From: Leucocoprinus leucothites
Taxonomy: Eukaryota > Basidiomycota > Agaricomycetes > Agaricales > Agaricaceae
Direction: 5' to 3'
Assembly: GCA_013368445.1 (NCBI GenBank)
Contig: JAACJO010000038.1
Coordinates: 124,001-188,000, forward strand
Length of the DNA stretch: 64,000 nt
In this document: positions 1,685 through 58,940 of the stretch, in pieces
How positions within the stretch are numbered: position 1 is the stretch's first letter
How the letters are laid out: each line of letters begins with the position of its first letter
Translations under genes and position numbers: made by a program
Notes under the pieces: generated by a model
What the model was told of the DNA's origin: nothing
What the model saw: the letters and a program-made list of their open reading frames with translations, nothing else
Databases searched by the model: none

Positions 1685-2620
1685 CTAGCTGATCTGGAAG
1701 TTGGGAGCTGGTAACTGTTTTGCATCTGCAGATTGTTGATACCATTTCTGTGCCTTGGATATTTCAGCTTTGAGTGTGGTGTGTAGGTCATCGAGATTGA
1801 CTGTGAAGTCATGGGCATGAGCTGGCACAATATTGCACTCCAGATAGACTGTGAGGTTGGGGTGGTAACCCTTGTTGGTGAAGAAGGGGGAGATTCTGGT
1901 GGTAGCACTGGGGGTGTTATTGTAGGCAAATTCTGCAAGTGGGAGGAGGTCAAACCAGTTATCTTGCTGGTAATTGCAGTAAACACAAAGATATTGCTCC
2001 AAAGTCTGGTTGGTATGTTCCATCTGTCTGTTGCCTTCAGGGTGATAACCTGAAGTGAAATGTAGGTGCATGTCCAGAACCTTGCCAAGGGATCAGAAGA
2101 AGTGAGATACAAACTCTGAACTGCAATTGGATGTGACGTGAGAGGGAACACCATGCTTGGAGAATACATGAATGACGAAGAGCTGAGCCAGTTCTGTGGC
2201 AGTAATGGTGTCGTGGGTTGGAATGAAGATAGCCTGTTTGGAGAGTCGGTCGACAACTACAAGGATAGAGTTGAAACCAGAAGAGGTCAGGAGTTTTTCA
2301 ATGAGGTCCATAGAGATCGAGTTCCAAGGTCGTTCAGGAATAGGAAGTTGCTTGAGATTTCCATAGGGCTTATGATGCTGAGATTTGGATTGCATACAAA
2401 TGACACATGATTTACAGAAATCCTTGACCTCGGATCAGATATTTGGCCAAGTGTACTTGTGTCAGATGAGCTCCAGAGTCTTGTTCTGTCTGAAATGGCC
2501 AGAGAGGATGTGATTGTGTTTATACTGAAGGACTTGGAGTCAAAGATTGTTGACATCGGGTACATATATTCTGCCATCAAGCCTTAGGAGGCCAGTGGAG
2601 TCAACCGACCAGTGACCTTT
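1685..2620 (-). pseudogene. Ty3/gypsy integrase core (H2C2 zinc finger and DDE domain)
   Basis: Read on the minus strand, the segment shows an HHCC zinc-finger region (HNHILSGH, then CKSCVIC at about 2400-2530). Next comes the RNase H-like core: SMDLIEKL with the first catalytic Asp, a decayed SNCSSEF where TSDxGSEF is expected (second Asp replaced), and HPEGNRQMEHTNQTLEQYL, which keeps the catalytic Glu. At least two frame changes and in-frame stops split the core (2093-2395 and 1685-2071 are different frames). The loss of the second Asp and the frame breaks make it inactive. Confidence 0.85.
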
Positions 2621-2689
2621 GGGTGAGGAAATGTGGGTGGATGTGATCAGATCTTGAGGAAGTGAGGTGAGGATGTCAGAGTGGGGGTT

Positions 2690-3376
2690 TTCAAGATCTA
2701 ATATGGTGGCTGCATGAAGGGAAGGAGTGGAAAAATATGTAGCTTGAACGGAAGCTGAGAGTTGTTCATGTGTGAAGACAGGTCAGAAATTGTGTGGATT
2801 GACTGAAGCATAGCCATTATTCCCCCCTTTAGGGTCAACATCCCATTGTCTAGTAAGAGTGTCAGGTTTGGTTCTGAGTCAGCCGGGTTAAAAACAGATA
2901 ATGAGGTTGAACTGGGAGAGGAACTCGGACCAGCAAGCCTGTCGACAGGTGAGGATCTTGGTGGCACAGAAGTATTCAAGATTTTTGTGATCAGTAACCA
3001 TGTCAATAGGAGGAGAGGCCCCTTCGAAGTAATGCTGCCAGATGCAGAAAGCCTCAAAGATAGCTATGAGTTCCTTGTCATGAGTATTATAGTTGGACTC
3101 GGCCATGTTGAAGGTGTGGGAATGGAAGGCAATAGGATGAACTTCATTGTCATCCATCATGATGGACAGGATGGTGGCTAGGGCATAATCAGAGGTATTG
3201 GTCTCAATGATGATCTGAGAGTTGGGGATCCAATGAGTAAGGATAGGGGCTATGGTGAATGCTTCCTTGAGAGAGTCAAAGGCTTCTCAACATTTGTCTT
3301 CAAAGTTCCACTTAGCCGATTTGTGGGTAAGGCACATAAGCAGCACAACAATGTCGGAATAGTTGTAGATGAAGCA
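2690..3376 (-). pseudogene. Ty3/gypsy RNase H domain
   Basis: On the minus strand, directly downstream of the reverse transcriptase frame. It shows the gypsy-type RNase H motifs: HPIAFHSHTFNMAESNYNTHDKELIAI (the SRKLxxAExNYxxxDKELLAI pattern) and DMVTDHKNLEYFCATK (the TDHKNLxYF pattern). Stops and frame shifts interrupt it on both sides. It is part of the same polyprotein as the reverse transcriptase and integrase. Confidence 0.8.
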
Positions 3377-4513
3377 TCAATAGAAGTTTGCGAAACCTAG
3401 GAAGAACTGTATGTCCTTGACCTTCTTAGGTTCAGGCCACTCTTGGATAACCTTGATTTTGTCTTCTGACATTTTGAGACCAGCTGGGGAGAGGATGTAT
3501 CTGAGGTACTTGACAGAGTCAGAATGGAATTCACACTTATCTGCTTTAGCATATAGGCCATGCTTGCAGAGCTGCTTCAGGACATCTCGAACATGTTTCT
3601 TATGTGTGTCAAGATTGTCAGAGTAGATAAGGATATCGTCAAGATAGACCGTCACACAGACATCAAGGAGATCAGAGAAGATGTCATTCATAAACCACTG
3701 GAAGGCTGTGGGTGCATTGGTAAGACTGAACAGCATGACAAGCCACTTGAAGGAGCTGTAGCAGGTCCTGAAGGCTGTCTTCCATTCATCACCTTCAGCG
3801 ATGCAGATGAGATGATAGGCATGGCAGAGGTCAATCTTGCTGTAAATGCGGGCTTTGCAGGGAGAGTCAAGAAGGTTGGAAATGAGCGGAAGTGGATAAT
3901 GATCCTTTTTGGTAAGCTGATTGAGCCCATGGAAGTTGACACAAAGTTGAAGTGAACTGTCTTTCTTCTGAACAAAGAGAACAGGTGCGCTGTGAGGTGA
4001 AGAAGTGGGATGGATAAATCCAATGTTGATGTGCTCGTCAATGAACTCACAGAGGGCCTCAAGCTCGGATGGAGAAAGGGAGTAGATGGTGCCAATGGGA
4101 GGTTGAGCACCTTCTTCAAGGTTGATCTTGAGGTCATAGGGGCAATGTGGGGTGAGAGTATCAGCATGAGCCTTGCTGAACATGTCAGCAAATTTGTGAT
4201 ATTCACTGGGCACATTAGAAAGGTCTGCTGACTCATCAGAGACATGAGCTGAGCCAGCAGAAGCAGATGTCAAGTTCAAATTGAGATGGAAGTTTACTGA
4301 GCCAGGAAGACATGAAGTGTGAATAAAAGCAGGAGCATTGATGAGCGAAATGTGAGGATGTGCAGGAGCAGAATCAGAAGTGGATGAAGGGGTCCCAGAT
4401 GGTGATAAATCCAGAGGAAGGGTGTCAGCCATCGGACAGGGATTGGGTGATGATGTAGAAACTGCCATAGAAGCAGATGCGATGTGAACAGAAGGGGCAG
4501 GAGTATCTGGCAA
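3377..4513 (-). pseudogene. Ty3/gypsy reverse transcriptase
   Basis: A 378-aa open segment on the minus strand. The N-terminal 100 residues are Ser/Pro-rich linker. The reverse transcriptase follows: EYHKFADMFSKAHADTLTPH, the gypsy entry motif, then SSPHSAPVLFVQKKDSSL, SKIDLCHAYHLI (palm Asp), SLTNAPTAFQWFMNDIF and the catalytic YLDDILIYS. The catalytic pair is present, although several usually conserved residues are changed (VNFHGLN for VDYRGLN). The frame is lost at FLGFANFY at the start of the connection to RNase H. It is the best-preserved piece of this element. Confidence 0.92.
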
Positions 4514-6782: not shown

Positions 6783-8092
6783 TGCCAGCCAGGCCATGAA
6801 AGTGGATTGGGTTGTGACACTTTGCATTTGTTTAAGTGCAAGCCATTTTCTGAGGAAGCTTTCTCCTTTGTTGAATAGTAGGAACAATTGATCCAAGGCT
6901 TGCCAAAATGCATCAGCAGTACCAAAAGTAGGTACTCCATTTTGCATGTGATGGGTAAGGAAGTCTCTCCTCTAGAAACTTGCTCCTTCTCCCATGTTAT
7001 ATAATGCACAGATGATGGTGTCATGGTCTGATGGGAATTGATCACGGTTGGCCAAGAAGTATAATGTGAGTTGTTCTTTCCATCTTTGATAATCCTGAGC
7101 AGTGCCATTGAATTCTTTGGATAGGTCATATTTGACTCTTCTATTGTAGTGTTGGGGTTGTTGTTGTTGTGCTTGTCCAAAGAATCCTCCTCTACCTCCT
7201 CCTCCTCTACCTCCTCCACTTCCTCCTCCACTTCCTCTGTCTGGACTTCCAGGCAGTCCTTTCCCTTTGAAACCTTGTGATACTGGTTGATAGACATTAT
7301 ATTCTGGATTATTTGCTCTGTATCCAAATGTGTTTGCTGCCAAGACTTCAGTTCCTCTATTGAATTCACTGGATTCCATTGGTGATCCTGCTCTTTGAGG
7401 TCTATAGGAGACCTTGGAATCTGATTGGGATGGGGCAGTAATAGTGGAAGATTCTTGTGAAGGCATTTCTTGGGTTTCAATAGGTTTGAATTGGAGTCTA
7501 GGTGGTTCTGTCTGGGCAAGGTTTTCGAGTCTAGTGAAGGTTTCTTCAAGTTGGGATTGGTGTTCTTCTTCATGTTGTCTACTTCTTTGTCTTTGGATAG
7601 CTGGGAGTAGTGAGGGTTTTGCAGGAGGGGTTGGAAGGTTTGGGAGTTGTTGTGAGAAGAGGGCATTCTGAGATTCTCAGGTTTCAACTGGTGAGTTTCT
7701 ACTAGTTGATTCTTGTGGTTTGTTCTTAGGGTGGAAATCATTTTGGAATCTCTTGGAGAGGCATGCTGCAAGGTGTGGGGGGTCTGCTCTTCTATGATTG
7801 TTGGAAGATGAGGTTTCAGGTATTCACGAACAACAATTGATGGGTGTCATTCAAGTATTAGTTTGATTATATGTTGTTGTGTATTGGGTGTGATATTAGT
7901 TCTAAAAATGGAATCAATAGAGTTGGATGAATTTGGATTTTTGTCAGATTCATAATCTAAATAGTTTTTGGTTTGATCGTTGATCTTGCTGATCCACAAT
8001 GGTGATTCAGGTTCTTCAGATGTCATTAGTCTACTAGTCAGACACTCATGGTCAGACTCTTCTGATTGGCTGCCTTCATAGTTTGTATGCAA
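6760..8092 (-). pseudogene. Second, unrelated gag-like region (outer element)
   Basis: Minus-strand frames contain a Gln/Pro-rich N-terminal part, an arginine-glycine run (SGGGRGGGGRGGFFGQ at about 7190) and then a gag capsid-like core: KYDLSKEFNGTAQDYQRWKEQL, YNMGEGASF, and after a frame change TADAFWQALDQLFLLFNKGE. This is the familiar order of gypsy-type gag proteins in mushroom genomes, but it differs from the gag at 4986-6154. It ends abruptly near 6782, where the proposed chromovirus LTR begins, suggesting the chromovirus inserted into it. Confidence 0.6.
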
Positions 8093-30850: not shown

Positions 30851-33274
30851 ATGCCGCGGGCCGTCAAACTCCCTCACGTCTCTGAAGACATCCATCATCC
30901 GTATCGTCGGGGTGCAGGTCCTCATGGCCCTACTCCTCAACCTTGGACGTCTGCGCCTCAACAACCTCCTGCGCCTCAACGACATCTTGCACCTCAACCA
31001 CCTCCTGTGCATCCTGCTTCTACTATTCCTATTTCTGCGCCACCTCATAGAGAGCCCCCTGATCCAACGTCTACTCCCTCGCCTTTCCCTTTTCCAGCTC
31101 CTGGTCTTCCCCCTCCTACTTTGTCTCCGCCCAGCCTGTCATCTACTTCTTCCTCGCAGCCGCGACATTTCCATACACGTGAAATGTTTCACAACGCACA
31201 AGGCTTCGTTATTAACAATCCTCAATTCATTGATGCCTCCCATGCAGGCTCTGGTGAGCTATACGGTTCCCTTAAGCTCGCCCACTGATCTCATGTGACG
31301 AATAGGCCTCGAGCGACTCCTCAGGTACTCAATGCCGGCCGCATTCCACGACTCCGGGGTTCGCTACCCGCCACCAAAATGCCACCTTGGCACTCGAAAC
31401 GACTACATCGACCTCATCACCAACTGGGCACTGGAAGCGTCGGATCGCAAGGAACCCATCCTTTGGATGCACGGTCCCTTTGGTGTTGGCAAGTCGGCTG
31501 TCGCACAGAGCTGCGCCGAGGCCCTCGAGCGCATGAACAAACTCACTGCTACCCTCTTCTTCTCCCGTTCCAATTCAGATCATGACGATCCTCAGCGCGT
31601 CTTTACATCCCTCGCATATCAAATCGCTACCGTATGCCCCTCATTCGGGGAAATCGTCAGCAAGCGCATGATTGACCATCCTGCTCTCGCGACAAAATCA
31701 CTGTTAAAACAGTTCGAGTATCTGCTCGTCCAACCCCTTAGCCAAGTTGACATCGCGGGGAGCGGCCTTAACGGGCGTGTTATAATCATTGATGGACTGG
31801 ATGAGTGCTGTGGAACGGCAGAGCAGTGCGAGATCATCAAAATCATTGCAGCTTCCGCTCACGAACGTACAACCCCATTCCGCTGGTTCATCACCAGCCG
31901 TCCTGAAGACCCTATCATCCGGACCATGAATTCCCCTGCCGTATATCCCGCTCGTTCTCGTATTGAACTTCCTGTATCGCGCAAGGTTGATCACGAGATC
32001 CTAGTCTACCTGACTGACGAGTTCAAGGTCATCCGCGAGGATCATGGTCTTCCTGAGTCGTGGCCATCGGAGGAGGCCCTTGCCCTACTTGTTGAACGTG
32101 GTGCTGGGCTGTGGATCTATGTGTCGACCGTTATTCGCTTCATCAAGGACGAAAACTCTTTTGGTCCCGAAGACCAGCTGCGTATTGTGCTCGAGTTTGC
32201 AAAGGATGTCTCTGGCAAGGTTGGGCCGGACAACCCGTTGGCAGAGATGGACTTTTTCTATACCCTCATTATCCAACGAGTCCCGCTAAAGATCAGGACA
32301 ACAGCCCGGAAAATCCTTCTGGCTTGTTCTACGTTGAGTGGGTTTCCATCTTCTATTGCCGCTACCCTCTGCCTTTCCGCAGAGCAGCTCCGTCGTGCCT
32401 GTGCTTCCATCCAGTCAATCATGGAGCTCCGAGGTTCTGACTTCGAATCCATGAGCATGAACTTCTACCACGCATCGTTCCTCGATTTCATGAAAGATCC
32501 CCAGCGGTCCAAGGAGCTATCTATTCACGGCGACTTCTTGATTGCGTGTCGACGGGAGCTTTTAGAGTGGTTGTATAATGTCTGTTCTCGCAGTACAGGT
32601 ACCATGTTTCCTGAACCCGTCTAGTGTTTCTTGCTCTGACGAGGTCCCATGTCACTTGCAGATTCCGAGCACACTACGTTTCCTTTGGGTACCATTCTCC
32701 CAGAAGATAGATTGGCTGCTGGTCACTATCAATATGTTTGGTGTTTGTTTTGGAGGCTTTCTCAAATACCCGAGCATCCGTTTGATTCCCAGACTGCTCG
32801 GTCTCTTGCAGAATTTCCATTCAGGAAAATGCTCAGGTTGCTGGGGGATCGTAGCGAGTGGAGGATCTTTGGTGGTCTGGTAAGAGACAATGTAGGCCCC
32901 CAATATCATTTATGTCCTTGGGTTATCACTCATTATGTGACTGGTGTTTGCAGCTCCCGGCTGAACTTCGTGACGAGGTTGTTCAATGGGGCAGGTGTCC
33001 AATTCCACGGTGCATGTATACCGAGGATGTCTGGGTTTGGGGGCATGGAGAGAATGCAATAATTCCTATATTGTCGGGTAATGGCTTTATATCAATGACC
33101 AATCAAGATGTGAGTAAATGCTTGCCTTATTATTTTATCTGTGTTCTGACTGTTTTATCTCAGCGGTGTGATGGTCGATGTCTCTGTGGAGCTTGGATGC
33201 AGATAGCTCATCATGAGAGGCAGAACACTGACATTGAGGATACTGACACTGAGGATGCTAATGATGATGACTAG
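30851..33274 (+). CDS. NACHT-A, NLR-like STAND NTPase
   Basis: Five exons: 30851-31253, 31306-32598, 32662-32879, 32954-33109 and 33164-33274, encoding 726 aa with no stops. STAND NTPases of this type act as fungal NLR-like signalling receptors in nonself or stress responses; the ligand is unknown. The N-terminal 100 residues are Pro-rich, followed by MFHNAQGFVINNPQF and GLERLLRYSMPAAFHDSG, the usual lead-in to mushroom NACHT domains. Walker A GPFGVGKS (residues 191-198), Walker B VIIIDGLDEC (293-302) and the sensor-like WFITSRPED. A helical region extends to about residue 565. The C-terminus carries a short Cys cluster (CDGRCLCGAW) and an Asp/Glu tail. No repeat sensor domain (WD40, ankyrin, TPR) is present. 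Confidence 0.88.
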
Positions 33275-33599
33275 TTCAGTAGGCATAGTGTTCTTACCCC
33301 AGAGTCACCTCAATCATAACCATTCTGTTTGTTGAATAAATGACATATGCATTGCATTGATGCTGTATTGTATGGGGCCATTCTCCCTCACCTGGTTACT
33401 ATGTTGGAACCTCAAATTGTCACATGTGATTATACAGTGTATGTCCAATAGTCACATATTTGGAGGCCCGAAAACCCATTTTTCATTCATGCAATGCTTC
33501 CTATGTTGACAGACACACTTCACCTCTATTACAGATACTGTATACACTATCTGTTCTACCAATGTCATCCACATCCGCACTCTTCTGCCCTCCTTGCTC
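33275..33599. other. Downstream region of NACHT-A
   Basis: Homologous blocks follow NACHT-B (50822-51150), NACHT-C (55375-55580) and the orphan block at 57910-58110, so the duplicated unit extends past the NACHT gene. No coding sequence recognised. Confidence 0.5.
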
Positions 33600-34110
33600 C
33601 TCGCTTCGACTGTCAATGCTCCATACATTCAATCAAAATTATCAACTATATCAAAATCGCCTCGAATTCCTCCCTGGGGTCTGGTTGGATGCTGGTACGG
33701 TTATCAATGCTATGGAAAAAAAATGATCGAGTTTGCGTCTTGAAAGGCACTCCCAAGCCTAGCAGATGAATAGAGAGCAGGTATCCAAGGCGCATCATCG
33801 CGGAGTTTAGCGAGAGCTCGTAAGCGTCTCCCTCTAAAGGTGGGTGCCGCCCCCCACCAGACCATTCGTCAATAGCTAAACAAGCATTCCGAGGGAAAAT
33901 AATTGATAACAGTGTTTGAACGTTCCCCCCCTCCCCTCAATTCGATCACACAATCATACTGCCATCCCTCCGAAAGCGCCAAAACGTGGGAGCCCACATG
34001 TCCGTAACTCCTATAAAGTGATCTCGACGGAGTCCCTCTCGTCGGTGTCCCTTTCCCAATCGTGAATAAACCGTGAAAGCCCGTAAGGCTCACTATAAGG
34101 GATGATACTC
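33600..34110 (-). pseudogene. HypX remnant (3' half)
   Basis: Minus-strand sequence matches the 3' exons of HypX-A (27440-27950): a decayed version of the GPHVLAFMEGWRYDHMIE exon lies at about 33950-34020, and the C-terminal exon at 33620-33850. It contains stops and a run of A, and is clearly nonfunctional. Confidence 0.65.
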
Positions 34111-44664: not shown

Positions 44665-44689
44665 CATTGAGGACACGGACGATGATAAC

Positions 44690-44962
44690 CAGACTCCTTC
44701 CCAGGCGCCGGGATGCTGATTATATAACTTTTTTCCGAAGTTTAACCGAAACTTCGTAAGTTAACGCATCCCGACGACTGGCACGAAATGTAGTGTACAT
44801 TTGTTTACCAATACCATCCGTTGCCCAGCCATCGTATTTTGATCGATGCCATCAGCCCCCAGACGGCTATCATATGGCCATCACTAAGCCATCAGCGCGC
44901 CATCACCAATGACCTCAGATGTGTGGGAACCGCGCTCGCCACTGCCAAATTGAGAAGGGCAC
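44690..44962 (+). repeat. Left terminal inverted repeat of the 6.1-kb element
   Basis: Contains a hairpin (CGAAGTTT-AACCG-AAACTTCG, 44737-44757) and four GCCATCA motifs between 44845 and 44905, spaced irregularly. These subterminal repeats are candidate protein-binding sites. It reads continuously into the helicase 5' region, so the repeat may also act as its promoter. Confidence 0.85.
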
Positions 44963-44994
44963 ACGCACATTGTTTGTTGATTGGTTCCTGTTCC

Positions 44995-47480
44995 ATGTTT
45001 CCCAGAAGAAGCCCTCCTTCCATCCAGGAAATCCGCGAGAAAGTCAAGTCTCGTTTTGGTTACGAGCCCTGTCTCTTCCAAATAGAAGATGCATTGGCAC
45101 AATTCCGGGGCGAAGATTGCATCACCATTGCTGCAACGGGTTCCGGGAAAACACTGACTTTCTGGATCCCCTTGCTTTTTTTGCCAGGAATTTTGATTTT
45201 GATAACAGCTCTTAACATCCTTGGAGATCAAAATGTGGCAGAGCTCAAAGCACTGGGTATTGAAGCGGTTAATGTGACTGCAGAGAACTCCACAGATGAA
45301 TTGTTCAAGGTACCTATATATGAACTCTAATTAAACAACACCCTCACATACTATGGCAGGAAATCCAGTTGGGTGTGTACCGTGTAGTCATAATTAGTCC
45401 TGAGAAGGTTCTCCAGGACATACGTACTCAAGCATTGTGGAAAGATATCAAGTTCGTGTCGAAACTGATTGGGATCTCCTGTGACGAAGGTCATTGCATC
45501 AGCCACTGGGGAGTGACATTTCATCCCGAATACGGTCAACTAGCTCGCCTGTGATGGATCTTACCTGTACCAGTCCTGTTTCACATAGTATCCACCACAA
45601 TGCCCCACAGGATATTGCAAGATGTGTAGGAAAAGCTAAACATGCATTCCAACAATACTACTATCATTCGAACATCAAATAATCATGCAAACATTCATCT
45701 AACGGTTGAGCCTATGCAATATCCAATCAGCAGCGCCAAGGATTTGATTCGTGTCCTGCAACTCACCAATGACAAGCAACTACCGAAATTCATGGTCTTT
45801 GTTAACAAGCGACGCGAAGCGGAGGAAGCGGTGGAGAGAATCTGGGATGATACAGTCATTGTTAATAAGGAGCGTGGGGTAGAGGAAGTGGTAGTTTGGG
45901 ACGATATGCTGAGATATCTTGAGGACAGGATCACTTACTTCCATTCAGGCATGAGCCCCGAATTTCGAGAGAGCCGCATTGCGATGTTGAGGCACGGTGA
46001 GTTGTGGGGCATCATCTGTACAGATGCTGCAGGAATGGTGAGTCCAGAACTTTATGGCTTGAAATTAATACTCACTTGTTGTCCAAATAAGGGGCTCGAC
46101 TTGCCTGATGTAGAGCTTATCATCCAGGTGGGCTATACATCATCGTTATGTACACTGTTGCAGCAGTTTGGTCAAGGTGCGTGTCAACGGAATCGACACG
46201 CGATCATGATCTACCTTGTTGAAGCCCAGTACATCGATAACACACCGCAATCAAATGCTGCTGTCAAGCGAAAACAAAAATGTCAGGAGGCTGAGGATAG
46301 GAAGAGGGTGAAACGGTGGTGGTTACAAGTCAACAGTGATGCCCAAGTCAGTTCTGGAGGAAATGCTCGTACGTCAGATGCAAATGGAGGAGAACATATA
46401 CAAGACGATCACTTACCAAAGGCAATCTGTTGCGACCCTGCCAAACTACAATTTCCCTCACCATACTGGATGTCGAATGAGGAGTATGAAGAGGCGGTGA
46501 TGCTTCTATTCATCAATGCCTGCAGTCGAGGCTTCTGTCACCATATTGTCTGTGACTGCTACTTTGGGAATGATCTCGCAGGTTAGTAACAGCAATTACA
46601 TTCTAAAACTCAATAACATGGCTTACCATTCACTGCAGATGCGTACGATGAGTGCATTTGTGCATGATGTGGTGAGAGGGAGAGTGGTGAGATGGCTGAT
46701 GGGACCAGATTGTCACAGCTTCTCTGTTGTGACGGGTGCTTCCCAGACTTTGTCAAATTGCCATCACCACCACTTGCTAAATGCCCTCGTGCCCAATGCA
46801 CCTTCAAACCCAAACCGTTCGACATGGGCCCCACCGAGAGGAAGCTAATAGCTGTACTCTGTGAGTGGAGGAGTGAGGCTTTCAAGACCTCGCCGTTCAA
46901 GGACCAAGGTGGTCTTATTGGAGCCCAGCTCCTGATGACCAATATCCTCCTTGAGCGTATTGTTAATTTGGCACATTTTGCCAAACTTCCTGATGTCTCT
47001 GCTCTCAGTAAGCAGACTGGCTGGCGTTACACGGCGACTTACGGCGCAGCTATCCTGGCACTTGTGCACCTTCACATTCCCAAGAATGCCCCCCCTCAGA
47101 GTCTGCCAAAACTGTCTCCGCCCCCTTGACTACTGCAACTCCTAGTACTTTAACCACATCCACCGACAATGTGTTATCCGCAGGCTTCATGAGGGCCTCA
47201 CAGCACTGCTGCAGATTTTGCAGATCGATATCTCACATTGGTATGTTTTAGTGACACAAATAGCCGATGATTACTTATACAGTTGTTGTAGCTGGTAATC
47301 CTCACTGTCCTTGCTACAATGACTGGCTGGAAGTTTGGCATGAGAAGGATGCAAACAAGGAGAACACTGTGCCCACTCAACGCCAATGCTGCTCCTGCAA
47401 AGAGCTTGGACATAGGTCAGGGAGCACCAAATGCAAGAATTCCAACCTGGCGGACAAACAGCATTCTCGTCCACTCATTA
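44995..47480 (+). pseudogene. RecQ-like DEAD/DEAH helicase of the transposon, three nonsense codons
   Basis: ATG at 44995 (MFPRRSPPSIQEI). Exon 1 (44995-45309) has the Q-motif region FQIEDALAQF and Walker A AATGSGKT. Exon 2 from 45360 has CDEGHCISHWG (DEAH-type Walker B, the DExH-CISxWG form typical of RecQ). The second RecA domain follows: TYFHSGMSPEFRE, a 54-nt intron (46038-46091), GLDLPDVELIIQVG and QQFGQGACQRNRH. A Cys-rich region (46640-46800) and a terminal zinc-knuckle-like CCSCKELGHRSGSTKC (47386-47433) end the gene. Stops interrupt it: TGA 45552-45554, TAG 45627-45629 and TGA near 46660. It would unwind DNA, possibly in transposition; it is no longer functional. Confidence 0.8.
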
Positions 47481-47506
47481 CATCGTTGAACAATGCTGTA
47501 TGTCAT

Positions 47507-50418
47507 CTATTCTATCTCCAGGTCTCCTGCATCTACCTCGACTAAAAATTCATTGATCCCCTCGTTTACATAGATATCTTCGTTGACATCTGTCCCGTCA
47601 CTTCCACCTCCAGTCATCTCGTCATCTGAATCTGTTCCCCCAACATCTACGTCCATCCCACCATCCTCGACCCCTTCCTGACTGAGTTGTACCACACCAG
47701 ATGTCTGTGCCTCGTGTAGTCCTTGTAGAATTTGGTCTGGCGCTTTATACTGAGCTTTTCTTCCCGGTGTGAATATATGCAGTTTATTTCTGGTGAATTC
47801 TTTGTGGAGTTTCTGGATTGTCTGTGTCATATCCGGTGGTGAGTGTCGGAGTGTCCGATGCACCAGATAGAAGCCATTCTCAACAGTAACATGACAATCC
47901 CTGAAAAACTCGATGAGTATAGACTCCTCGAGTACTCACTCTAGACTCCGATTGACGCCTGTGCCGCCATAAATGACCTACAGAAAATTCAAATCACATA
48001 GCTTTCTGTAGGTGTAGAAAACTCGCCTTGGTATATAAATTGTTTCTTTCAACTAACCAATCAATCCCACAAAAGCCGTTTGGTTTACCAGTGGGATTAC
48101 AAAGCCAGTTCATCTGAATGATCTCGCTACAGTATATTCAGGTGAGTATCAATTCCAGTACACTGAAGAATATCACTCACGCCAACTCAGAAGGATATAC
48201 TTTATCCAGCTTCATCTTAAATTCAGCCATATGATGAGCATACTTGTGCTTTCCCATAGCCTTGAAAATGTAGATCCAATATGCCAATAGTTCCTCGAAG
48301 CGGCCAATGTCACCGGCTTTGATCCCATGATGAAGCTTGAGATAAAGCAGCTCATCTCAATTGTGCAGTATTTGATTTTTGAAAATACCATCTCTATGTA
48401 CAACCTCCCGACTCTGCAGATTGCACAATTGGGTGACGTCGCCAACATATTTCTTGACAATCAAATACGACATCTCTTCAATCAATTCCCAGGAAGGCTC
48501 AGCCACTGCAAATGCCTTGAGAGAATTCCAGGTATTATTTCACTGCTTTGCCTCGACGGTCCAACTATTAAGCATGGCAGCCCAAATATCATGATGGATA
48601 ACCTGATGTGTTCTTTGGTAACCAGGTTTTGACACAAAATTCCCAGAGTCATTTGGATGAAGAATACCGGCATGATTGAACATGCTGTTCAGATCCTTTC
48701 TAGAATCGCCAGGCTGTACCCAAGTTTGCCATAGTGCATCTGCACAGGCCATCTCAAAATGAAATAGGCCTGGCACAAATACAACATACTAGAAATGCCG
48801 CTTGGGTGTGTCTTCCACACGCCATGTCCGTTTTGCAGATTCAAGTCGCTCCTTTGTTAGAAGATCACCATGGATCAATATTACCCATGCAGTGATATCT
48901 GTGTCACCTAGTTTCATGTTGAAGCTCTTACTGCCAGCCTCGCCAATACCCCCTTGCCGTAGAAGTTCCTCCATGACCTGCATATTGCCATCTGCAGTCG
49001 ACTCCTTAATATGCATTGCTCAACAAGGTGTTTGCTGTGTTTTATGAACAGGGATTGGTTTCACAGGATCTGGTGTAGCCAGATATTTTTTATATCTTGA
49101 GAAACCTGGAGCCTGATGAACAAGAATATGCCGAACATGCCATGCAAGCTGCTGTAGAAGTGGACTAAGTTGAGTGTCCAATTCCTTAATCCCCTCATCT
49201 GGGTGGAAGAATACATCCAAGTCATTATCACTGACATGAATTGGTCTTGTGGCTTTTCAGTTATTGGGATCACGATCCCACAGTTCTTCTGAGCACTGGA
49301 GATGATGTAATTTATCTTTGATTTCAATCGGGGGGATGGTGGTGGCAGAAGTGGCGCTGACAAATGAAGTGTCATTCTTGACAGTGGGTTCTGCAACTCT
49401 GAATGACATGTCAAAGTTATCATAAGCGAATGCTGTTGTCATCTTGCACACAGAGTCTCAAAGCCTGGCACTGGCATCCTGTGATAATGATTTGATGGCA
49501 GAGTGGATTGAAGTGAGGCTAATAGATAAACCAGCATGTGATAAGACTTCGATAACTTTCTCGGGGACTGATGCTGAATGATAAAAGATCCCGAGAATGC
49601 TTTGAAGATGGTTGCAATGTCGATTTGAGCTTTGCAAAAAGATGGAGAGACAGACAACAGATCTCTAAATAGCAGTTTTATTGATCAATGACTTGAAGTT
49701 CATTAATGATCGAAACTCTCACAATCACCGGAAGGACAGCACTGAGCTGGGCTGCACGTGCTCCACTCTTTTTTGATTGTCTCCTCTTTGAAATTCCATC
49801 CTGCTGCTCACTTGTTGTGGCCTCCAGGTCTGAGTCCACATCAGTGAGGTCCTGCTCTTCAGCTATCTCAGGTTGGTTGACCTCCTCTTCATCTACCTCA
49901 CCAAGCTCATCAAGAATGGCTTCTCATTTTGAACCCAACCTCTGGAAAGCCCCATCCTCTCGGTCCCTCTGTTCTTCTTTCATATACACCCTTCGAAAGT
50001 CCGGCCAAGCATCCAAACAATGATTGATTAATTTCCAGGTTGAGGGGGCAAGTGATCGCATTTTTAGGGCAGCATCTTTCATGAATGACCCCTCCATATC
50101 TGACATGTCTGCAGTTGTTGCATGGAAATGTAGACCGTGACCTCACTGCGACAACTCGTGGATTTCCTTTCGAAGCTTCTTAACAACTAAATTGAAGGCC
50201 CATGAGAAAACATCATCAGTGTGATGATTATTCAGGCTTCCTAGGACATTTTCGACCTCTTCTTTTGAGAGAAAACAAGCTCCGGTCTTTTTACGGCGGC
50301 CCTCCTTTAAGGCCTCGGAGATGAATTGGGGTATGGTGATTGCATTATGCTCCATTGAAGCAAGCACAACGTGGAAGGGATTTGTGGAGGTCATTGAGTA
50401 GGACTTCAAATCATTCAC
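47507..50418 (-). pseudogene. DUF6589-type protein of the transposon, many nonsense codons
   Basis: Minus-strand gene with an ATG at 50418 (MNDLKSYSM). Recognisable order: LLxSMT-like N-terminus, NNHHTDDVFSWAFNLVVKK, DNFDMSFRVAEPTVKNDTSFVSATSA (about 49330-49430), WVILIHGDLLTKERLESAKR (about 48870-48930), FVPGLFHFEMACADALWQTWVQPG (about 48700-48775), GNFVSKPGYQRTHQVIHHDIW, LKLHHGIKAGDIGRFEELLAYW (about 48250-48340) and WLCNPTGKPNGF. These are the hallmarks of fungal DUF6589 proteins as I know them; biochemical function is not established. In-frame stops at 50143, 49924, 49258 and at least four others make it dead. A Glu/Asp-rich tail ends near 47507. Confidence 0.75.
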
Positions 50419-50540
50419 AAGTACGTGGGTTTACATCTTTCTGATAAGAGTTTATCATTTCCTATCGCAGATGCAGGAAGATTTATCATTTTATCATTGC
50501 AACAGTAACACCAGGTCTCATTTTGGCAAGTGATGACGCG

Positions 50541-50812
50541 TGCCCTTCTCAATTTGGCAGTGGCGAGCGCGGTTCCCGCGCATCTGAGGTCATTGGTGAT
50601 GGCGCGCTGATGGCTTAGTGATGGCCATATGATGGCCGTCTGGGGGCTGATGGCATCGATCAAAATACGATGGCCGGGCAACGGATGGTATTGGTAAACA
50701 AATGTACACTACATTTCGTGCCAGTCGTCGGGATGCGTTAACTTACGAAGTTTCGGTTAAACTTCGGAAAAAAGTTATATAATCAGCATCCCGGCGCCTG
50801 GGAAGGAGTCTG
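50541..50812 (-). repeat. Right terminal inverted repeat of the 6.1-kb element
   Basis: Reverse complement of 44690-44962 with about four differences, in each of which this copy has C (on the element strand) and the left copy T, or G against A. Includes the same hairpin and GCCATCA motifs. Homology stops sharply at GTGCCC (50541). Confidence 0.88.
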
Positions 50813-50821
50813 GATGATAAC

Positions 50822-52931: not shown

Positions 52932-55325
52932 ATGTCCCTGAGCGTTCGTGACTTTTTCGTCAGACTCGCTCACGACTTCTTTGATCCATATCGACGATGT
53001 CATTGGGCTGAAGATCTCAGGGGATCTGCTCCTGAACCTTGCACATCTCCACCTCAACGACCTCCTACGCCTTTGCCCCCTCAAGATATCACCTCGCTCT
53101 CTCAGCTGGCTACCACTGCGCCTCCTACTCTCCTACTGGTGTCCCCGCCTTCCACGACCCCTGCTCCTGCACTTCCTAGTATTGAGCCCCATAGTTCAAT
53201 ACATAGTCCTGCCCCTTCCCCCTCCCTAACACTAGTTCCCCCTCCTACTTTGTCTCCGCCCGGTTTGTCGTCTACTCCCTCACAGCCGCAACATTTCTAT
53301 GCATGTGAAATGTTCCCCAATGCCCAAGGGTTCATTGTGAACAATTCTCAATTCAACGAAACCTCTGTTGGTTCTGGTAAGCTTCACGGTTCCCTTGAAC
53401 CCACCCGCTGACGTGATGTGATGAATAGGCCTCGAACGACTCCTTAAATACTCCATGCCGGACGCATTCCACGACTCTGGCGTTCGCTACCCACCCCCAA
53501 AATGCCACCTTGACACTCGCAACGAGTACATCGAGCGCATCACCAATTGGGCACTGGGAACATCGGATTGTACAGAACCCATCCTCTGGATGCACGGTCC
53601 CTTTGGCGTTGATAAATCGGCTGTCGCGCAGAGCTGCGCCGAGGCCCTGGAGCGCATGAACAAACTCGCTGCTACCCTCTTCTTCTCCCGTTCCGATTCA
53701 GATCGCGACGATCCTCGACGTGTCTTTACATCCATCGCGTATCAAGTCGCTACCGTATGTCCCTCATTTGGCGAAATTGTCAGCAGGCGCATGATTGAAC
53801 ATCCTGCTCTCGCGACGAAGTCACTGTCAAAGCAGTTCGAGGATCTGCTCGTTCAACCCCTTAGTGAGGTTGATGCCACCGAGAGTGGTCTTAGTGAATA
53901 CGTTGTGGTTATTGATGGACTGGACGAGTGCCGGGGAACAGAAGGGCAGTGCGAGATTATTAAGATTGTCGCAACTTCCGCTCACAAACGTATAACACCC
54001 TTCCGCCGGTTCATTACCGGCCGCCCCGAAGACCCTATCATCCGCACCATGATTTCCTCTGCTGTATCTCTCGCTTGTTCTCGTATCGAACTTCCCGTGT
54101 CTCTTGCAATTGATCATGAGATTCTTTTCTACCTGACTGACGAGTTCAAGGTCATCCGCGAAGATCACGGCCTTCTCGAGTCGTGGCCATCAGAGGAAGA
54201 CTTTGCCCTGCTTGTTGAACGTGGCGGTGGTCTGTGGATCTATGTGTCAACCATGGTTCGCTTCGTCAAGGACGAAAACTCTCTTGGTACCAAGACCAGC
54301 TGCGTATTGTGCTCGAGTTTGCAAAGCATGTCTCTGCCATAACTGGGGTGGACAACCCGTTGGTGGAGATGGACCTCTTCTATACTCTCATTATGGAACA
54401 GGTCCCACTAAAGCTCAGAATGGTCCGGAAAATTCTCCTGGCTCTTTCTACATTAACTAGGTTTCCGTCTTCTATTGCCGCCACCCTCTGCCTTTCCGCA
54501 GGGCAGTTCCGCCATGCCTGTGCTTCCATCCAGTCAGTTGTGGAGCTGCCAGGCCCTGATCTTAAATTTGAATGTATAAAATTCTACCACGTGTCATTCC
54601 TTGATTTCATGGAAGATCCCCAGCAGTCCAAGGAACTATGTATTCGTGGTGACTTTTTGATTGATTGTCGATGGGAGCTGTTAGTGTGACTGCATAAAGT
54701 CTGCTCTTGCAGTGCAGGTACTGTGTTTCCTGACCCTATCTAGTGTTTCTTACTCTGATGAGGTCCCATGTCATCTGCAGATTCTGAACACATTATATTT
54801 CCTCCAGATATTGTTCTCCTGGAAGGTGTATTAGCTACCTATCATTACTTGTATGTTTTGGGCTGGTTTTGGAGACTTTGTGAAGTCTGCAAGCATCCAT
54901 TTGATTCTGAGACTGCTATGTCTTTTGTGGGGCTTCCATTCCAGAAAATGCTCAGATTGCTGGGTGATAGTGGCAGGTGGCTGGTCAGTGGTCATCTGGT
55001 AAGACACAATGTAAGATTCCAATACCATTTGTTTCCTTGGATTATCACTTACAATGTGACTGGTGGTTGTAGCTCCCACCTGAACTTTGTGACAAGATTA
55101 TTTGAAAGGGCAAGTGTCCAGTTCTCAGGTGCACAAGCAACAAGGATGTCTGGATTTTGGGGTATAGAGAGAATGAAATGGTTCCTGTGTGGTCTGAGCA
55201 TGCTGATAGCTTTCAGTTAACAAACAATCAAAATGTAAGTGTATGCTTGCCTTGTTATCCATCTATGTATTCTGACTGCTTTACCTCAGTGGGATGATGG
55301 CAAGTGTGTTTGTGGAGCTTGAACA
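52932..55325 (+). pseudogene. NACHT-C, frameshifted with mutated Walker A
   Basis: Same exon plan as NACHT-A (exon 1 52932-53376, exon 2 from 53429). The N-terminus is MSLSVRDFFVRLAHDFFDPYRR followed by Pro-rich sequence. The P-loop reads GPFGVDKS, with Asp in place of the conserved Gly; Walker B VVVIDGLDEC remains. One base is missing near 54287 (GGTACCAAGACC against GGTCCCGAAGACC in copy A), shifting the frame; reading continues in the +1 frame (54234-54689). A TGA replaces Trp at 54687-54689. Later exons (54780-55325) are recognisable, ending in CKCVCGA-like sequence. Confidence 0.85.
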
Positions 55326-55599
55326 CAAGATTATGATGGGGGGCAGAAACTGATATTGAGAATGCTGATAACAATGACTGGTTTAGCAGGCTAGTATTCC
55401 TTCCCTTCCAGTTGTCTCAATTATTGTCTTCTGTTTGTTGAATACATGATACATGTGTTACATTAACACACCTTACCCCTATTACAGATACTGTATAATA
55501 CAACTGTCTATTCAATTGATATCATCCACATTTGCACTCTTTCACCCTCCTGGTTCCTTGCTTCAACTGTCCACATCCTATACATTCAATCAAAATCCC
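55326..55599. other. Post-NACHT-C spacer
   Basis: Counterpart of 33275-33599: the ACACACCTTACCCCTATTACAGATACTG block is recognisable at 55465-55495. No gene. Confidence 0.5.
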
Positions 55600-57240: not shown

Positions 57241-58940
57241 CGACCAGGACCTGCACCGCTGTCCTTAACATTTCATCGTCTCGGAAATATTAGAGGGAGC
57301 GAAGGCTATTATAGTTATGGCTGCCTCTTATCCAGTGGTATATTCTAAAATGTTCACTTTAGTTGTCGAATGAAAGCCAGAATGTGAGTGTGGACCTACA
57401 AGATCAATGACTCGTAAGGTAGTCAAATTAAGCTAAAATACAGGTGGATAACTCGACCTGTCGACCGTCCAAATTGTCTAATCCCTTCAGCCTTCTGCTG
57501 CAGCAGGAATGACTCATGCAACCTCCGGGTCATTCTCCCTGCTTGATGAGCATGAGTACATACAAAACACCTAGACAACGTGAACAGAGACGATCGTTGA
57601 AGTCTGCATGGGGTTTCGAAGCGGGTGGTGTCACGCGCATGTTTACAGGCATACATGCAGTGAAGAGGTGATGAAGGAAGATGTGCATAGAGTGCAAAAT
57701 GGGCCTTCGCGAGGAGAAGAGCTTTTTAATGTCAACGGCTGGGACTGTCAAAGCTGTTGAGGGAGACGGCTCAAGCCGTTCTCCCTTCGAGTGCTCTTTC
57801 GATTAATTTCGCTTCGAGAGGCGAATTCGGCGCAAAGTACTCCACCTGAGGGGTGGAGGTTGTTCTGTTCCAGTCGAGGGGCCGAGTACCTATCTATAGT
57901 AAAACCTCAGGTCGTCGTGTGTAGTAATACAGCATAAGTATGTCCAACGGCCACATTCCCGAAGGAAACACATCTCAACGTTCCTCGCGCTGGCGGACAA
58001 ATCTTGCCTCTATTACAAACGTTGCATACACACTCTCGTCCATTGACATGATCTACACCCGCACAGTTCCACCTTCCCGCTTCACTATAAGGGCCCCCGT
58101 CCATACTTCTTCATACATTACCTCTGAATAGGCACTACGACAAAATGTGTGCGAGCGTTATGATACAAGAGCACCACTTTTTCCAGTCGTGCCTTCATCG
58201 AACGATGAAGACGCAAAGAAACCCCAAATTCCATGGGAACATGAGAACATAGCGCCGAGTCGAGTATTCGAAAAGTTTCTCACCTTTGGGTGACATCCTC
58301 ACAGTAGCGTCCGATAAAGGTGCTCAAATTCATTTCGTCGACTAGTTGTCCAGTGCTAGACATGCCATAGGACTAATCAAGTGCTCTTCGAGTGGGGGAG
58401 TGTAGCTGGTACGGCGTAGTTCGATAGCTCTTTGTCTACAAGCGTGTTGGGGACAAGGGTGCAGGCACGGGAGCACACCTCGCGGTGCTGAGACAGATGC
58501 GGAAATGTAACCGTGAGGCGATGGAAAGATGAGGGAGAGCGAGGCCAGAAGCGAAATGTAAGAAATGCTAGGAAGAGCTGTCAGCCAATGAGACGGTTAC
58601 TGTATATTCGACGATAAACTCACCTTCCTTCTATCCGTTTACACAGCGTGCTATCCACGATCGTATTCTTGTGTGCAAGGACATAAGAGGCTGAGGCTCA
58701 AACGTCGGCACAAGCACTATCCCAGGGCGTAGTTATTGCATGTTATCAATTGAGCGGCGGTCCACGGCCTACAGCATCATCTATGTCAGTTGGAGAGTGG
58801 CGTGGGACGTGAGTAACGTACCTCCTATGAAACGATCTCCCCAACTTGGTACCACACTCTGTCGATCATCCAAATTATGAAGTTCCTCCAATCCTCTACT
58901 CCGGCCTGGATGTCTGCAGCACAAACGAATCCTAGGCGCT
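57241..58940. other. Duplicated non-coding blocks after HypX-C
   Basis: 57440-57660 (minus) is another KLRR-like/QQKAEGIRQFGRSTG exon-like repeat. 57910-58130, 58240-58560, 58600-58730 and 58795-58930 match 50960-51150, 51230-51600, 52080-52210 and 52280-52440 in order, so this is a shortened copy of the 50960-52440 block lacking about 400 bp (51650-52080). No intact gene. Confidence 0.55.

Follow-up and report, generated by a model that had tools for sequence, protein, structure and literature searches.

RecQ-like helicase and DUF6589 genes in a dead transposon of Leucocoprinus leucothites, very probably of the AcademH kind

Structure of the element and its insertion site

The window analysed here, a 64,000-nucleotide stretch of contig JAACJO010000038.1 (positions 124,001 to 188,000) from Leucocoprinus leucothites (genome of 47.0 Mb in 110 contigs), contains a single 6,123-bp element bounded by terminal inverted repeats (TIRs, Table 1). 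Two genes lie tail to tail within it, one running in from each end: a RecQ-like superfamily 2 (SF2) helicase gene and, convergent to it on the minus strand, a gene matching the Pfam family DUF6589 (PF20231) above the cut-off, as the initial annotation had described. The near-identical TIRs are flanked by exact copies of GATGATAAC, and the flanks, when joined without the insert, align across the insertion point to window positions 32881-33619 (558/758 columns, 74%), where GATGATGAC is present once, ending at 33271; the initial annotation labels this homologous site the NACHT-A locus. TIRs, duplication and empty site agree, as previously annotated, that 44690-50812 is one mobile unit. Stretches resembling the flanks occur at 54991-55571 and 57902-58077 as well as at 32881-33619 (66-81%), so the insertion fell in a repeated local gene neighbourhood.

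Table 1. Features of the element and its insertion site (window coordinates)
Feature	Position	Strand	Basis
Left TIR	44690..44961	+	starts CAGACTCCTTCCCAG; 268/272 positions same as right TIR
Right TIR	50541..50812	-	272 bp, paired with left TIR at 268/272
Target site duplication GATGATAAC, left copy	44681..44689	.	9/9 identical to right copy
Target site duplication GATGATAAC, right copy	50813..50821	.	exact
Uninterrupted paralogous site GATGATGAC	33263..33271	+	alignment of joined flanks
RecQ-like SF2 helicase gene	44995..47545, ends approximate	+	several exons, stop-broken; Pfam, RecQ profile, PDB, homologues
DUF6589 gene (predicted DDE transposase)	47507..50394, ends approximate	-	PF20231, homologues, reading frames
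YDNFD motif, predicted first catalytic Asp (strand 1)	49410..49424	-	D304 42/47, D307 45/47 rows; model strand 299-310
GDLLTK, predicted second catalytic Asp	48852..48869	-	D509 48/50 rows; directly after model strand 504-508
PGLFH..., conserved G541xxH544	48747..48773	-	G541 51/51, H544 49/51; helix start after strand 536-540
DWLVERNN, predicted catalytic Glu	48039..48062	-	E763 35/35 rows, other 16/51 gapped; helix 758-773

The helicase contains the DEAD and Helicase_C domains, and Pfam revealed helicase-core domains only. Its top NCBIfam model is the RecQ family TIGR00614 (129 bits against a cut-off of 219.8), and its closest PDB match is the RecQ structure 4tmu (E 1.8e-21). The best family and structure matches are both RecQ, as in the earlier description; since the score falls under the cut-off of the curated RecQ model, the protein is named RecQ-like.

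The window copy is dead, as both of its genes are broken. A TGA and a TAG codon lie inside the helicase match. In the DUF6589 gene the reading frame shifts near 49690, and the presumed exons contain eight stops, two ahead of the shift and six beyond it; the PF20231 match itself contains six stops, two of them inside a presumed intron. Comparison with another copy in the genome (L009) yields 336 transitions and 12 transversions (28 to 1), and 177 of these transitions fall at a CpG of one copy, CpG covering 6% of positions. This CpG-enriched excess of transitions points to decay by deamination of methylated CpG as the likely process.

A family of elements with 9-bp target duplications

Fourteen matches to the left TIR were found in the genome, and the 15-base terminus, with at most one mismatch, occurs 54 times, compared with 3 times for the reversed pattern. 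Two-ended elements, bounded on both sides by CAGACTCC-type ends, number nine among the loci fetched, the 54 terminus occurrences having been only partly paired or read: the window element, L009, L010, L011, L014, L027, L051, L052 and L053. They carry three kinds of TIR, and one end of L009 has a changed last base. The search proposed in the initial annotation, for TIR elements with 8-10-bp duplications, thus returned 9-bp duplications in all nine, eight of them exact and that of L011 with one mismatch (8/9). The right end of L027 was taken at 7165, which bears the duplication, rather than at the alternative end 7374, which does not; 7165 is favoured by the recurrence of its pair of end types in L053. 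Six one-ended or unpaired copies (L012, L013, L015, L016, L049 and L050) were excluded from this count, as was L054, a 130-bp copy with the variant end CAGGCTCC whose flanks match at 7/9 positions by eye. L014 is only 181 bp long with an exact 9-bp duplication; it could equally have inserted as a longer element and then undergone internal deletion, and as the two cases are indistinguishable, no conclusion on minimal ends is drawn from it.

Recurrent pairing of the helicase with DUF6589

Searching the genome with PF20231 gave at least 10 matches, in at least five loci (the window, L009, L010, L011 and L027). At each of the five loci found, the DUF6589 gene lies in a TIR element together with a separate helicase gene running toward it (5/5 convergent), which supports the helicase as a recurring companion and not the chance capture that the initial annotation had allowed for. 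The five loci are related copies, for which reason no joint probability of their pairing counts as evidence here. At the DNA level, L027 and the window element share a single 59-bp match, the L027 DUF6589 protein is 28-47% identical to protein P0003 depending on the stretch, and its helicase is 27-34% identical to that of the window. The 2,059-bp element L053 retains the starts of both genes.

The pairing extends to other fungi. DUF6589 searches listed 51 and 91 proteins (124 distinct identifiers), of which 88 carry an organism name, in every case fungal; the helicase search found 130 proteins, 120 of them listed. No more than about 8,000 candidates were scored in either protein search, and the lists are therefore partial. 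Contig sharing was judged from equal species and equal contig size, not from positions, using the 88 named DUF6589 proteins (36 of the 124 being left out) and 84 named fungal helicases (36 of the 120 listed rows, without organism name or bacterial, being left out). Among these listed matches, 15 of the 84 helicases share species and contig with a named DUF6589 protein. Six of the 15 shared contigs measure 8.8-43.9 kb, the shortest being one of 8,795 bases from Hygrophoropsis aurantiaca; the other nine exceed 100 kb and so say little about gene distance. In Gymnopilus dilepis, the locus tags of helicase and DUF6589 are three apart (CVT26_001802 and 001805). Sharing drops to 0/14 among the most distant named helicases listed (P0195 on). 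For 37 of the named helicases, the lists also include a DUF6589 protein of the same species; 22 of these helicases are not on a DUF6589 contig. Fragments, helicase-only copies and the partial lists may all contribute to this number. Scans of viral contigs and genome contigs with the DUF6589 alignment found no relatives.

Predicted fold and candidate catalytic residues of DUF6589

Structurally, DUF6589 is predicted to belong among the DDE transposases. Two AlphaFold2 models of DUF6589 homologues (proteins 43% identical) were compared with known folds and ranked by VIA-align; the first 18 entries for one model and the first 13 for the other are all DDE transposases or RAG1, among them Hermes, the P element, ISCth4 and RAG1. 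The fold prediction suggested in the initial annotation thereby supports the RNase H-like fold proposed there. Like hAT (Hermes), the P element, RAG1 and Transib, the modelled protein has an RNase H core whose last Glu is preceded by a large helical insertion, although the likeness is in fold only, at 8-12% identity. When the core of DUF6589 was searched by sequence against the PDB, nothing scored under E 0.038.

Residue conservation was read from a DUF6589 alignment of 51 rows, with counts over the rows having a residue at the position (Table 1). The initial annotation had placed the catalytic residues in HGDLLTKER and the following helix. The D of HGDLLT is indeed a likely catalytic residue, but the third acid is elsewhere: it lies about 250 residues after HGDLLTKER (DWLVERNN), past the helical insertion, on the helix that closes the RNase H-like core in the model (758-773, with E763). 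The first acid is found about 200 residues before that motif (YDNFD). Matches to DDE transposase folds and the conservation of acids in YDNFD, HGDLLT and DWLVE together suggest that DUF6589 is a DDD/E enzyme and probably the transposase of the element, in line with the initial proposal. If so, its uninformative name accounts for the absence of a visible DDE enzyme from the initial annotation. A Pfam scan of six of the 124 DUF6589 homologues gave only DUF6589 above cut-off, with no MULE and no hAT domain, and no other transposase was matched by Pfam in the ten open reading frames (ORFs) scanned.

Relationship to AcademH and other helicase-bearing transposons

The AcademH lineage of Academ DNA transposons, found in fungi and animals, reportedly goes back to Kojima in 2020. 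In print, a RecQ helicase is attributed to Academ as its non-transposase protein (Kapitonov et al., as cited in PMC3627910, 2013); Kojima (2023) gives duplications of 9 or 10 bp for AcademH and of 3 or 4 bp for AcademX, and ties these sizes to the helicase and the nuclease, respectively (PMC10045372); a screen of 1237 fungal genomes describes AcademH as low-copy in Basidiomycota, Ascomycota and Mucoromycota (PMC10799480); and putative non-autonomous Academ elements are reported to be widely inserted in the genome of the mushroom Marasmius oreades (PMC8290104). The window element is likewise a low-copy TIR DNA transposon of a fungus, a type of host also indicated by the named homologues, with a RecQ-like helicase gene, 9-bp duplications in its two-ended family and a DDD/E transposase as judged from predicted structure and conserved acids. 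It agrees with AcademH in every testable feature and very probably belongs there, an assignment based on host, inverted repeats, helicase, duplication length and predicted type of transposase. The predicted transposase of the element differs in carrying the Pfam name DUF6589; the profile search for this family listed only fungal-named or organism-less proteins and no animal Academ protein. With RecQ in Academ and the AcademH duplications in print, the initial claim that no described element combines the two genes is very probably wrong: this kind of transposon has very probably been described already, and the novel part is the function we infer for DUF6589 as its transposase. No paper of the literature searched mentions DUF6589, and the family is not known to be named in print as an Academ transposase.

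Other known systems resemble the element in part. AcademX, with 3-4-bp duplications and a nuclease replacing the helicase (PMC10045372), was set aside for an element with 9-bp duplications and a helicase. KolobokH, a DNA transposon of fungi, also carries a RecQ helicase, and in a rhodophyte Kolobok the RecQ gene is said to be on the complementary strand, as here (PMC9587614). The KolobokH helicase, however, is downstream of the transposase domain (PMC9587614), whereas that of the window is a separate convergent gene; this, the 9-bp duplications and the presence of GxxH where C/DxxH is expected led to a KolobokH identity being set aside. The subtelomeric RecQ-like helicases of fungi (PMC7473861), compared by description, share the RecQ core, but the window-type helicases lie between transposon ends. 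A hAT identity was also rejected, with no hAT transposase or dimerisation domain in any of the six homologues scanned. The target duplication of hAT elements is 8 bp.

Alternative explanations

The window element is, in our judgement with good confidence, a dead copy of a low-copy AcademH-kind TIR transposon with DUF6589 as its transposase. Helicase loci without DUF6589 weigh against this. A helicase search of the genome gave 28 matches in 15 loci, of which five contain DUF6589 and one a DUF6589 remnant (L053), and two of the two-ended elements, L051 and L052, hold a helicase remnant only. Together with a warning given by the aligner, these loci lower our confidence slightly. L051 (201-8209) and L052 (1002-5510) have the same layout, with three collinear stretches 87-96% identical when the insert in each is disregarded; from reading of the ORFs, that of L051 is Copia-like and that of L052 mariner-like. 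They sit at different targets, so this shared form probably moved at least two times, presumably in trans. Such elements demonstrate that the two genes can be parted, which is what would be expected if the helicase, DUF6589 or both were passengers captured by chance with an unrelated transposase. Yet the pairing recurs in two kinds of element with almost no common DNA and, in other fungi, on 15 contigs, no other transposase was matched in the ten ORFs scanned, and the predicted D-D-E fold would make DUF6589 a transposase itself; chance capture is accordingly very improbable.

A Mutator-like element (MULE) with a captured helicase is the least probable reading of those considered. Long TIRs are typical of MULEs, and both these and 9-bp duplications are found in the window element. 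ISCth4, an IS256-type enzyme, is among the fold matches, but Hermes outscores it in both models. The duplications of MuDR, at 4-10 bp, also fit (PMC10045372), yet its C/DxxH signature (PMC9587614) reads GxxH at the place judged equivalent. The absence of a MULE domain from the six homologues scanned and the recurrence of the helicase with DUF6589 in other species argue further against it. A separate, undescribed superfamily, built on the AcademH plan of RecQ helicase, DDE enzyme and 9-bp duplication around an unrelated transposase, would be consistent with the silence of the literature searched on DUF6589; we regard it as unlikely, as all three published features that can be checked (fungal host, RecQ helicase and 9-10-bp duplication) fit AcademH.

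Proposed mechanism and significance

Under the AcademH assignment, DUF6589 would act as an RNase H-like D-D-E transposase whose last Glu follows a large helical insertion, as in hAT, the P element and RAG1. The enzyme would bind to the long TIRs and cut the ends (CAGACTCC...GGAGTCTG), and the cut ends would be joined to the two strands of the target at points 9 bp from each other, gap repair leaving the 9-bp duplication. The RecQ-like helicase may serve as an accessory that unwinds the ends or the strand-transfer intermediates. The element structure, its duplications, the recurring gene pairing and the conserved acids are observed, and fold and residue roles are modelled; catalysis, cut-and-paste movement and each helicase step are put forward conditionally. 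A further, tentative proposal, which we hold as somewhat doubtful, is that Academ elements with a helicase have DUF6589, with a hAT/P/RAG-type fold, as their transposase family and that the helicase is a working part of the reaction.

This provides a testable function, that of a DDE transposase, for a Pfam family of unknown function present in many fungi, along with three candidate catalytic residues open to mutation. DUF6589 and neighbouring RecQ-like genes could then leave the host gene count in annotation, and Academ elements with a helicase could be grouped by structure with hAT, P and RAG1. If the reading is true, an intact copy from a mushroom could serve for the study of RecQ-assisted DDE transposition.

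Additional observations

The 9-bp duplications begin with G or C in all nine two-ended elements and end with G or C in all nine (1.2e-6 at the window's G+C fraction of 0.468, a post hoc and uncorrected value); L054 breaks this rule. In L027, two element ends lie back to back around a single GTCCTTGTC (697-974 and 6912-7374), and part of its target sequence is repeated inverted near the right end, an arrangement that may be a nested or rearranged insertion. Beside L012, at 2505-4113, is an inverted-repeat pair of a build similar to the L051/L052 layout. Two listed helicase relatives from Leucocoprinus birnbaumii (P0128 and P0198) also have protein kinase domains, and may represent gene-model fusions or host-transposon fusions.
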